A stretch of DNA of 64,000 bases from Wenjunlia tyrosinilytica (GTDB lineage Bacteria; Actinomycetota; Actinomycetes; Streptomycetales; Streptomycetaceae): NCBI RefSeq assembly GCF_014646055.1, contig NZ_BMMS01000017.1, positions 112,453 to 176,452 of the forward strand, read 5' to 3'. The notes beneath the pieces were generated by a model, which saw only the letters and a program-made list of their open reading frames with translations, made no database searches and was not told the origin of the DNA. The translations under genes and the position numbers were made by a program. Below, piece by piece: positions 34,554-60,590 of this stretch (within the stretch, counting starts at the first letter, position 1; every line of letters begins with the position of its first letter).

Positions 34554-34585
34554 TTGAGAGCGCTCTCAAAACCAGCGCTCTCAAA
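34554..34585. promoter_or_regulatory. LacI-type operator upstream of GH64 glucanase
   Basis: A perfect 16-bp palindrome TTGAGAGCGCTCTCAA occupies 34554-34569, and the half GCGCTCTCAAA repeats at 34575-34585. A further GCTCTGAGAGC palindrome lies just upstream near 34525. The form resembles the CebR box (TGGGAGCGCTCCCA) used by LacI regulators of glycan-degrading genes. It is ~115 bp upstream of the glucanase start. A similar GAGCGCTCTCA occurs at 38514-38524. Confidence 0.65.
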
Positions 34586-51322: not shown

Positions 51323-53182
51323 GTGAGAGCATCCCCCCGAAAGGCCCTGGCAGCGAGCGCACTCGCCCTCGCCGCGCTGGCCGCCGCCGCACTCCCCGCC
51401 GCCCCGGCGACGGCCGCGGCACCGGCAGGCCCGAAGGCGGCTGCGGCCTGCACCCCGACGCAGGTGGTCGCCAACGGCGGGTTCGAGAGCGGCACTTCGC
51501 CCTGGAGCCAGACGTCCGCCGTGATCACCAGCCGAGCCGGGCAGACCGCTCACGGCGGCACGACCTTCGCCTGGCTGAACGGCGTCGGCGGCACACACAC
51601 CGACACCCTCTCGCAGAACGTCACGATCCCGTCCGGATGCGGCAGCGCCAAGCTCTCCTTCTGGCTGCACATCGACACCGCCGAGACGACCTCGTCCACG
51701 GCGTACGACAAGCTCACGGCGAAGATCGGCGGCACCACGCTGGCGACGTACTCGAACCTGAACAAGAACACCGGCTACGCGCAGAAGTCGTTCGACGTGT
51801 CGGCCTTCGCGGGCCGGACCGTGGCCGTCGCGTTCACCGGCACCGAGGACTTCAGTCTGCAGACGAGCTTCGTCATCGACGACGTCGCCCTCGACACCTC
51901 GGGCGACACCACCCCGCCCGCGGACTCCACCCGCACCCCCTCCTCACCCGCCTACACGGTCAATCTGACCAGCAACACCGACGGCACCGTCTGGACCGGC
52001 CACCAGAGCGCCACCTTCACCAATGCCTCCTCCTCCCCGCTCGGCGAGGTGTATCTGAGGCTGTGGGACAACGCCCACGGCACATGCGCCTCCACGCCCA
52101 TCTCGGTGACCAACGTCACCGGGGGCACCGCGGGCGGCCTGTCGGGCGACTGCACCTCCCTCAAGGTCACCCTGCCCGGACCGCTGGCGCAGGGCCAGAA
52201 GGCCACGATCGGCTTCGACCTCGGCATCACCGTGCCCAGCGGCGCCGACCGCTTCGGCCACGACGGGGCCTTCAGCTTCATCGGCAACGCCCTTCCCGTA
52301 CTCGCGGTCAAGGACGGCGCCGACTGGCATCTCGACCCCTACACCAACAACGGTGAGTCGTTCTACTCCCTGGCCTCCGACTTCAGCGTCGCCCTCGACC
52401 ACCCGAACGGCCTGCTCGTCCCGGCGACCGGCGCCTCCGTCGACACCCCCGGCTCCAGCGGACGCACCGTCACGACCGCCACCGCCACCAAGGTCCGTGA
52501 CTTCGCCTGGGCCGCGGGCCCGTTCACCAAGATCTCCGGCACCTCGGCCTCCGGCACGCCGGTCAATGTCTACTCCGTCTCGGGGATCAGCTCCTCCAGT
52601 GCCCAGTCGATGCTCACCACCGCCAAGTCCGCCGTCGACGCCCATGCCTCGCGGTTCGGCGCCTACCCGTACGGCGAGTTGGACGCGGTGATCGACAACA
52701 ACTTCTGGTTCGGCGGGATGGAGTACCCCGGGTTCGTTCTCGACCTGGTGAGCACCACGGCCCTCACCCACGAGATCGGCCACCAGTGGTGGTACGGAAT
52801 CGTCGGCGACGACGAGTACACCAGCCCGTGGCTCGACGAGGCGTTCACCGACTACGGCACCGACCTGGCGCTGAACAAGACCGGCACCGGCTGCTGGAAC
52901 AGCGTCTCGTGGGCCTCCGCGGCCGAGAAGATCACCAACTCGATGGCCTACTGGGACGCCCACTCCTCCCGGTACTCCACCGTCGTCTACAACTACGGCA
53001 AGTGCGCCCTGCACGACCTGCGACGTGTGCTCGGCGACACCGTCATGGCCAAGCTGCTGAAGGACTACGCCACCTCGCACTGGTACGGCGTCTCCACCAC
53101 GGCCGAGTTCAAGGCCGCGGCCCAGGCCGCCACGGGCACGGACCTGACCTCGTTCTGGACGCAGCACCGCATCGAGGGCTGA
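51323..53182 (+). CDS. Secreted M1 family zinc aminopeptidase
   Basis: A 619-aa exported metallopeptidase. The signal peptide is ~1-35. A carbohydrate-binding-like beta-sandwich follows at ~45-195 (VVANGGFESGTSPWSQT; FVIDDVALDTSGD), then the M1 N-terminal sandwich and the catalytic domain with HEIGHQWW (His ~483, Glu ~484, His ~487) and the third ligand Glu ~506 in WLDEAFTDY, the exact HExxH-x18-E spacing. The family's exopeptidase motif appears as WFGGMEYPG. GTG 51323 has AAGGAG 6 nt upstream. It acts outside the cell on peptides. The N-terminal sandwich is unusual for M1. Confidence 0.93.
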   Translation: MRASPRKALAASALALAALAAAALPAAPATAAAPAGPKAAAACTPTQVVANGGFESGTSPWSQTSAVITSRAGQTAHGGTTFAWLNGVGGTHTDTLSQNVTIPSGCGSAKLSFWLHIDTAETTSSTAYDKLTAKIGGTTLATYSNLNKNTGYAQKSFDVSAFAGRTVAVAFTGTEDFSLQTSFVIDDVALDTSGDTTPPADSTRTPSSPAYTVNLTSNTDGTVWTGHQSATFTNASSSPLGEVYLRLWDNAHGTCASTPISVTNVTGGTAGGLSGDCTSLKVTLPGPLAQGQKATIGFDLGITVPSGADRFGHDGAFSFIGNALPVLAVKDGADWHLDPYTNNGESFYSLASDFSVALDHPNGLLVPATGASVDTPGSSGRTVTTATATKVRDFAWAAGPFTKISGTSASGTPVNVYSVSGISSSSAQSMLTTAKSAVDAHASRFGAYPYGELDAVIDNNFWFGGMEYPGFVLDLVSTTALTHEIGHQWWYGIVGDDEYTSPWLDEAFTDYGTDLALNKTGTGCWNSVSWASAAEKITNSMAYWDAHSSRYSTVVYNYGKCALHDLRRVLGDTVMAKLLKDYATSHWYGVSTTAEFKAAAQAATGTDLTSFWTQHRIEG

Positions 53183-53203: not shown

Positions 53204-53237
53204 CGCACCGCCGCCCACCTCCGCGGGCGGCGGTGCG
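53204..53237 (+). terminator. Strong hairpin terminator after the M1 peptidase
   Basis: A perfect 13-bp stem, CGCACCGCCGCCC (53204-53216) and GGGCGGCGGTGCG (53225-53237), with an 8-nt loop, 22 bp after the stop codon. Confidence 0.85.
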
Positions 53238-53330: not shown

Positions 53331-53783
53331 CTACGCCACGCAGAACTCGTTCCCCTCGGGGTCCCGCATCACCCACCAGTGGCCCGCCGGGCCCTTGTCC
53401 ATCTCATGGACGCGGGTCGCCCCCAGGCCTTCCAGCCGGGTCACCAGGGCTTCCAGGCCGCCGGGTTCGCTGTGGATGTCCAGGTGCAGGCGGTTCTTGC
53501 CCGTCTTGCCCTCGGGTACGTCCTGGAAGAGCAGGCGCCGACCGCGGCCGATGCCGCTGGTCTCGTCGAACGGGTCCTCGGGATGGCGGATCGCGGCGTA
53601 GCCGCGGAACGTCTTGCGGCCCCGGTGCTCGACAACCGCCTCTTCGCCGATGTGACCGGCGCCCAGCAACTGCTCGATCAGGGCGCTCGGGTCCTCCACC
53701 TCGTACTCGAGCGCCGCGGCCCAGAAGTCCGCGAGCGCGGGTGCGTTCGTGCTGTCGACGACCAGCTTCCAGCTCAGTGCCAT
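53331..53783 (-). CDS. VOC family protein, probably leaderless
   Basis: A 150-aa glyoxalase-fold protein. It opens MALSWKLVVDSTNAPALADF with WAAALEYEVEDP, has NRLHLDIHSEPGG in the middle and ends HWWVMRDPEGNEFCVA; the spacing fits a VOC dimer-forming domain. Start ATG 53783 lies inside the inverted repeat shared with the divergent CGNR gene, 21 bp from its start, leaving no room for a ribosome binding site. Function unknown; probably co-regulated with the CGNR protein. Confidence 0.9.
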   Translation of the reverse strand: MALSWKLVVDSTNAPALADFWAAALEYEVEDPSALIEQLLGAGHIGEEAVVEHRGRKTFRGYAAIRHPEDPFDETSGIGRGRRLLFQDVPEGKTGKNRLHLDIHSEPGGLEALVTRLEGLGATRVHEMDKGPAGHWWVMRDPEGNEFCVA

Positions 53784-53807
53784 GTAACCAGTTATATTGG
53801 TTACATG
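53781..53807. promoter_or_regulatory. Inverted repeat spanning both divergent start codons
   Basis: CATGTAACC (53781-53789) and GGTTACATG (53799-53807) are a perfect 9-bp inverted repeat around the AT-rich centre AGTTATATT. The outer ATG of each arm is the start codon of the VOC gene (minus, 53783) and of the CGNR gene (plus, 53805). Hexamers TATATT (plus, 53793-53798) and TATAAC (minus) stand ~7 nt before each ATG, as for -10 boxes of leaderless messages. Confidence 0.8.
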
Positions 53808-54404
53808 GATGCCGCCGCAACCAGAGGGCTGATATTGCGCTCCCGCACCGGGGCCGCCTACCGGTTCGACCCCGGCGCGCTCTGCCTGGAACTGCTGACC
53901 ACCGGCGGCCCCGGCCCCTTCCGCCGGTACGAGGTGCTGCACCGGCCCGCCGACCTGGCCGCCTGGGTGGACCGGTCGCGGCTCGCGCCGGCGCCCGCTC
54001 TCGAGATCTCCGCCGCCGACGTGGCGCACGCCCGACGGCTGCGGGACGCGCTGTTCCGGGCGGTCCTCGCCCGCACGGGCGGGGAGCCCTATCCGCCCCA
54101 CGACCTGGAGGTCGTCAATGAAGCCGCCGCCCGCCCGCCGCTGGCGCCCGCGATCGGGCCGGGCGGACAGCGGCAGTGGGCCGGGACCGCCGGCGGAACG
54201 CATCTGATCTCCACCGTCGCCCGCGACGCCGTCGACCTGCTGACCGGCCCCCTCGCGCACCGCATCCGCACCTGCGCCGCCGACGACTGCCACCTGGTCT
54301 ACGTCGACACCTCACGCCCCGGCCGCCGCCGCTGGTGCTCCATGGAGCACTGCGGCAACCGCCACAAGGTACGGGCCCTGCGCGCCCGCTCCGAGGAAGG
54401 ATGA
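53805..54404 (+). CDS. CGNR zinc-finger (ABATE-domain) regulator, probably leaderless
   Basis: A 199-aa protein. An ABATE-like domain is N-terminal (RFDPGALCLELLTTGGPGP; HARRLRDALFRAVLARTGG). The CGNR treble-clef finger is at the end: CAADDCHLVYVDTS, then RRWCSMEHCGNRHKVRALR with four zinc cysteines. Such proteins are presumed transcription factors of stress or stress-adaptation genes. The start is inside the palindrome shared with the VOC gene, so it likely regulates both. Its stop overlaps the next ORF as ATGA. Confidence 0.92.
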   Translation: MDAAATRGLILRSRTGAAYRFDPGALCLELLTTGGPGPFRRYEVLHRPADLAAWVDRSRLAPAPALEISAADVAHARRLRDALFRAVLARTGGEPYPPHDLEVVNEAAARPPLAPAIGPGGQRQWAGTAGGTHLISTVARDAVDLLTGPLAHRIRTCAADDCHLVYVDTSRPGRRRWCSMEHCGNRHKVRALRARSEEG

Positions 54405-60327: not shown

Positions 60328-60590
60328 CGGGCCACGACGCGTGGCTCCTCGCCACTCGCACCACCTTTCCCGCCTTCCGGGGGCCGACCTAGCGCCTTGG
60401 CCGCGGCGCCGGCAAGTGGCCCGGCGTCCCGCCGACCGAGGGCGGCGGGACGCCGGGGCGGCCTGTCGGGTCCCGGTGCCCCTGCCGACCGGCGTGGTAA
60501 TTTCGGCGGTGGAGGCTCGTAGGTGTGCCTGCCCCGGACGAGATGTGCGCCGTACCCGGTCCGCCAAGACGACGCACTCGAGGAGACGTC

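Follow-up and report, generated by a model that had tools for sequence, protein, structure and literature searches.

The 21-bp gap between the divergent VOC and CGNR genes of Wenjunlia tyrosinilytica lies within a perfect palindrome. Comparative sequence analysis points to this palindrome as the operator of the adjoining ABATE-CGNR protein (probability, roughly 0.83), which would bind to it and repress both its own gene and VOC. The proposed regulator is encoded on the plus strand (53805–54404) of the window, i.e. the whole 64-kb stretch of DNA that was analysed, and its proposed regulated partner on the minus strand (53331–53783).

The VOC protein matches the Pfam family Glyoxalase_6 (PF18029) at 1.8e-26, with 93.3 bits against a cut-off of 23.6, and this VOC-type domain would class it with the VOC enzymes. 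The CGNR protein carries an N-terminal ABATE domain (PF07336; 4.8e-29, 102 bits, cut-off 24.4) and a C-terminal, four-cysteine CGNR finger (zf-CGNR, PF11706; 1e-20, 73.6 bits, cut-off 24), which is the domain arrangement of the ABATE-CGNR family. Its AF2 model (pLDDT, 85.6; pTM, 0.82) retrieves a single PDB entry below E 0.001, namely 3h0n (Jann_2411; E 5.9e-6; TM 0.57/0.61), and thus has the fold of this family. At the other end of VOC, a 13-bp GC-rich hairpin (53204–53237) lies between the convergent ends of VOC and an M1-peptidase-like gene (stop at 53182) and is likely a two-way terminator.

The ATG of VOC is at 53783 (minus strand) and that of CGNR at 53805 (plus strand), so the two are 21 bp apart, as stated in an earlier note on this DNA. 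The gap reads GTAACC-AGTTATATT-GGTTAC (53784–53804). This predicted operator core touches both start codons. The earlier note placed a perfect 9-bp inverted repeat at 53781–53807; the repeat is present between the ATGs, and its arms are in fact 11 bp long. The full palindrome (CCATGTAACCAGTTATATTGGTTACATGG, 53780–53808) is composed of two perfect arms around a 7-nt loop, CCATGTAACCA-GTTATAT-TGGTTACATGG.

We compare the window with 60 simulated windows, each of 64 kb and with the dinucleotide make-up of the real one. The window contains one inverted repeat with 11-bp arms, a spacer of at most 10 nt, and at most 50% GC; the simulated windows contain none, and a chance origin of the AT-rich palindrome was accordingly rejected. 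Without the GC limit, the window contains 11 such inverted repeats versus a simulated mean of 0.87, indicating that GC-rich hairpins are in excess as well. Two further repeats in the window are a perfect 11-bp inverted repeat at 34554–34584 (TTGAGAGCGCTCTCAAAACCAGCGCTCTCAA), which resembles a LacI-type operator, and a perfect, GC-rich 15-bp inverted repeat at 60420–60457, the longest in the inverted-repeat scan. In the 8.49-Mb genome of the host, GTAACC-N9-GGTTAC is present once. The relaxed pattern GTNACC-N9-GGTNAC is present at 16 places (control pattern, 1), with the GTAACC/GGTTAC form at this locus alone. The single site rules out a large regulon in this genome.

Within the palindrome, promoter-like elements overlap on the two strands, in line with the −10-like hexamers that the earlier note had seen ahead of each ATG. 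With +1 at the A of ATG, the CGNR −10 element TATATT (53793–53798, plus strand) spans −12 to −7, and the VOC −10 element TATAAC (53791–53796, minus strand) spans −13 to −8. Across 62 VOC-linked orthologues whose start abuts the site, the bases T-12, A-11, T-10, A-9, and T-7 are each conserved at 96–100%. These bases make up a TANNNT −10 element, which has its usual distance if transcription begins with the start codon itself, and the complementary strand of the conserved core, TTATANT, reads TATAAN, i.e. the VOC −10. In the same orthologues, GCAA at CGNR positions +13 to +16 is kept at 83–91% per base; it reads TTGC on the VOC strand and falls in CGNR codons 5–6. This conserved TTGC is the predicted −35 element of VOC, lying inside CGNR codons. 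In the window, it is TTGCGG (53815–53820, minus strand; codons 4–6), separated from the VOC −10 by an 18-bp spacer. No CGNR −35 element stands out in the alignment of the 62 orthologues.

The −10 elements lie six or seven nucleotides before the start codons, with no space for a ribosome-binding site. If in-frame candidates in the sequence are taken as start codons, 48 of 64 VOC-linked loci have a VOC start that touches the site (0 nt) or is 1 nt away. The first in-frame VOC start is 35–101 nt off in 10 loci, several of which show a GGAGG-like word ahead of it by eye, and the last 6 loci are other cases. The TANNNT spacing and the abutting starts suggest that transcription probably begins at the operator edge, and that the CGNR message, and in most cases the VOC message too, is probably leaderless. 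The proposal that both messages are leaderless agrees with the near-invariant TATANT spacing and needs narrowing for VOC, which does not appear leaderless in every homologue. The palindrome region is very probably a bidirectional promoter of mostly leaderless messages, its shared −10 being overlapped by an operator.

At least 88 of 297 genomes of the family contain a CGNR relative (E 1e-30 or lower). Matches from the family genomes were combined with 80 loci from named genomes (the best 80 of 527 relatives retrieved by a finger pattern), giving 120 orthologues of at least 51% identity, which were reduced to 84 at 85% identity. The site, with at most 3 mismatches in 12 positions, is present in 80 of the 84 non-redundant orthologues (0 mismatches in 40, 1 in 32, and 2–3 in 8). 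In 76 of these 80, the site adjoins an in-frame start codon of CGNR, and 64 of the 80 have a divergent VOC gene on the far side, which in L199 is at a distance of 1.7 kb. The earlier note had named absence of the repeat from homologous pairs as the finding that would count against it, and the repeat is kept. No recognisable site is found in the remaining 4 of the 84 orthologues, L135 (a fragment), L168, L184, and L188. Hosts of the site include Streptomyces, Actinacidiphila, Kitasatospora, Micromonospora, Thermomonospora, and Microbispora. The locus thus has the features of a divergent repressor–target pair, i.e. a predicted dyad operator over both promoters that is conserved with the regulator gene.

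In Kitasatospora (70 genomes), CGNR and VOC are mostly unlinked. A CGNR orthologue (E 1e-40) is found in at least 20 of the 70 genomes and a VOC homologue (E 1e-25) in 47, including all 20 with CGNR. A site with at most 3 mismatches abuts the VOC start in 19 of the 20 genomes with CGNR (16 unlinked VOC genes with 0–3 mismatches and 3 linked ones with 1–2), versus 4 of 27 genomes that have VOC and no CGNR among the matches listed (E 1e-40). In G080, the exception among the 20, the only VOC gene belongs to another VOC group (71–83%) and has no site. For VOC proteins of 45–60% identity, grouped by identity rather than by tree, the site is present in 19/19 genomes with CGNR and in 4/10 without (Fisher p = 4.4e-4, kinship ignored); G080 and G168 (two fragments) are left out of this comparison and are inside the 19/20 and 4/27 counts. 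The VOC site follows the presence of CGNR although the two genes are mostly unlinked, a connection in trans between the site and CGNR. By eye, the DNA upstream of the VOC genes that stand apart from CGNR often reads as a TTG-rich −35, ~17 bp, TATAAA, 7 bp, and ATG.

In more distant CGNR members, the 6-9-6 geometry is retained and the half-sites differ (GACACC, GAAACC, GTCACC, GTTACC, and GTCACG). In a motif-free spacer scan, 29 of 54 non-redundant CGNR genes have exact 6-bp arms at spacing 9 in their upstream DNA, versus 2/54 and 3/54 in control stretches. The 54 genes come from 58 non-redundant loci, 4 of which have too little upstream DNA; the set is unbiased as to DNA and biased to the clade, being drawn from the best 80 of 527 relatives by finger pattern. 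We also score sites by arm symmetry, AC/GT, and outer G/C. The score is at least 9 in 149 of 170 loci, 148 of which are tabulated; L140, with a CGGR finger and a GTCACG-like half-site, falls below the cut.

Among the 148 tabulated loci, the half-site varies with the finger. CGAR fingers pair with GTTACC (5/5), CG[GT]K fingers with GTCACG (3/3), CGNK fingers with a GTCACC-like half-site (2/2), and CGN[RLV] fingers mostly with GTAACC, GAAACC, or GACACC. In the reverse test, GTTACC-N9-GGTAAC occurs at 13 sites in 345 genomes; 4 of these adjoin a CGNR gene, and all 4 genes encode CGAR, one of them (L444) being the locus already counted as L347. In the ABATE-domain tree, CGAR/GTTACC is on two separate branches (placement support 86–87, not starred), and the co-variation of finger and half-site draws on few independent branches. 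A protein search for further CGGK members gives at least 3 of 200 genomes, all 3 known before, and one for CGAR members gives 0 of 200. The GTCACG pattern occurs in 0 of 345 genomes, a draw that included no genome known to carry GTCACG sites and is therefore uninformative. Together, the varying half-sites and the split regulon of Kitasatospora argue for the autoregulation of CGNR that the earlier note thought likely.

Two loci, L144 and L140, have two tandem CGNR-type palindromes upstream of a single CGNR gene by eye. In the W. tyrosinilytica genome, the GTG of a CGNK paralogue directly follows GTCACCTGTCAATATGGTCAC. A second GTCACC palindrome lies 2.5 kb on from that of the paralogue, ~150 nt from a DinB/mycothiol-S-transferase-like gene. 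A GTCACC-like pair on contig C5 of the same genome was rejected as palindromes and consists of direct GTCACC repeats (L276, 1018–1090).

The operator claim is limited to one clade. In a class-wide sample of zf-CGNR members (126 loci, 6 of them without a finger found, hence 120; L303, L314, and L317 excluded as used before), the site score is at least 10 in 9/120 versus 0/120 in a coding control, and one of the loci, L394, falls at a site already in the list of exact sites. The motif-free scan of this sample gives no excess at spacing 9 (25 versus 22 of 120). Most sampled subfamilies thus lack the site. CGAR is present in 6 of the 120, of which L347 has GTTACC; no site (score below 9) is found at the five others, L380, L384, L415, L418, and L430, which belong to another subfamily.

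The exact sequence GTAACC-N9-GGTTAC occurs 76 times, in 59 of the 297 family genomes (reversed control pattern, 2). By hand count, 43 of the 76 sites are at CGNR-family genes or VOC (30 at CGNR orthologues or fragments, 9 at unlinked Kitasatospora VOC genes, and 4 at other CGNR paralogues), and 33 fall outside this assignment. We read 30 sites with their flanks, of which 18 are at CGNR or VOC and 12, all from the 33, are elsewhere (9 + 2 + 1). Nine have alike flanks and lie upstream of an apparent valyl-tRNA synthetase gene in Kitasatospora (L067, 1501–1521, where Pfam finds tRNA-synt_1; L072, L075, L077, L078, L082, L084, L086, and L090). Two, in L071 and L074, are near molybdopterin oxidoreductase genes, together with cytochrome b561 in L071, and the remaining one is unassigned. 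The 3-kb loci of the nine valyl-tRNA synthetase-type sites and of L071 and L074 contain no CGNR match.

Such sites would be expected if a different regulator, e.g. GlnR or an unlinked protein, read the operator and CGNR were merely co-regulated. GTAAC and GTTAC are, moreover, GTNAC words, and GlnR boxes are GTNAC repeats with an 11-bp period. Here, however, the GTNAC words are 16 bp apart from start to start, which rules out a GlnR box. In addition, the half-site sequence changes along with the finger of the adjoining CGNR protein, and VOC is mostly without the site where CGNR is absent. We therefore consider another reader improbable, and the CGNR protein itself the better candidate.

A smaller chance still attaches to RNA polymerase as the sole reader of the palindrome, whose symmetry would then reflect only a bidirectional promoter with a shared −10. 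The near-invariant TTATA core indeed carries a −10 element on each strand, as do bidirectional promoters described in the accessible part of a published account (PMC12825309). However, the outer arms, which are not promoter elements, are almost as conserved as the core (96–100% per base in the right arm and 69–100% in the left). Furthermore, other CGNR clades retain the arms with the nearest start codon 15–58 nt away, and both arms persist at the ATG of unlinked VOC genes. An RNA hairpin that hides the start codons of longer transcripts is hardly credible and was rejected: a transcript begun upstream would bear an 11-bp stem around the ATG, but a conserved −10-like element sits in the middle of the stem-loop, placing the transcription start at its edge, and the centre is a near-invariant TTATA instead of a variable loop.

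For repression by CGNR, the following mechanism can be proposed. A CGNR dimer would contact the two GTAACC half-sites with one zinc finger each. The 21-bp site spans a single AT core that would serve as the −10 in both directions, and it would extend to the first base of both messages. Since the site lies over the shared −10 and both starts, one bound dimer could block RNA polymerase at both genes. Without the bound dimer, both leaderless messages would begin at their ATGs. Release of the dimer would follow when CGNR senses a ligand or a stress signal, so that the VOC enzyme and its own repressor would be induced together. We infer repression rather than activation.

The divergent neighbours in other clades include DUF6817-Glyoxalase (L136), a zinc-type dehydrogenase (L216), RidA (L190), mycothiol maleylpyruvate isomerase (L228), and a SnoaL-like protein (L206); the scanned neighbour in L210 has no Pfam match. 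A DNA ligase domain (L137), ketopantoate reductase (L138), and MerR-methyltransferase (L034) are also found, not all of them shown to face the site. The system may have a role in electrophile handling or detoxification. As a tentative generalisation, which we hold to be somewhat less than an even bet, one ABATE-CGNR clade would comprise undescribed local repressors with a readable DNA code. In such a code, GNNACS half-sites would be 9 bp apart, and the finger residues around CG[N/A/G/T][R/L/K] would determine which bases fill the variable positions; the small, detoxifying-type partners read in several members (VOC, zinc-type dehydrogenase, RidA, and mycothiol maleylpyruvate isomerase) would point to the zinc-thiolate finger or the ABATE pocket as the sensor of reactive electrophiles.

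The analysis yields a specific predicted 21-bp site for the zf-CGNR/ABATE regulator family, a two-gene regulon that can be traced where CGNR and VOC have come apart, and a proposed match of the bases of the half-site to the residues of the finger. No operator for any zf-CGNR/ABATE protein is named in the titles or abstract openings among the matches listed, a scope that leaves out most subscription journals, and the predicted operator, its partners, and the finger–site correspondence appear to be new. The switch would be very compact, with one 21-bp element acting as repressor site, −10 of two promoters, and whole gap between two leaderless genes.

Actinobacterial leaderless genes with TANNNT promoters are a known class. 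The two genes resemble this class in the TANNNT 6–7 nt before the start and in the lack of space for a ribosome-binding site, and differ from it in that two genes share one core and the predicted operator fills the whole intergenic gap. The zf-CGNR/ABATE proteins were predicted as regulators in 2009, likely dimeric and with DNA binding proposed; for Jann_2411 (3h0n), a dimer is considered likely and the finger is predicted to bind DNA (PMC2954205, accessible part). The CGNR protein is like Jann_2411 in its ABATE and CGNR domains, four-cysteine finger, and fold. In contrast to the accessible text on Jann_2411, which gives no operator, target, or genetics (PMC2954205), a predicted operator and partners are available here. 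Other bidirectional promoters are known to share a −10, one of them together with an autorepressor: in E. coli, the acrR repressor and acrAB pump genes diverge from a shared −10 under AcrR, according to the accessible part of that report (PMC12825309). The present locus shares this layout but differs from what is described there in that the proposed repressor belongs to a zinc-finger family, the predicted operator falls on the −10 itself and adjoins both starts, and the messages look leaderless.
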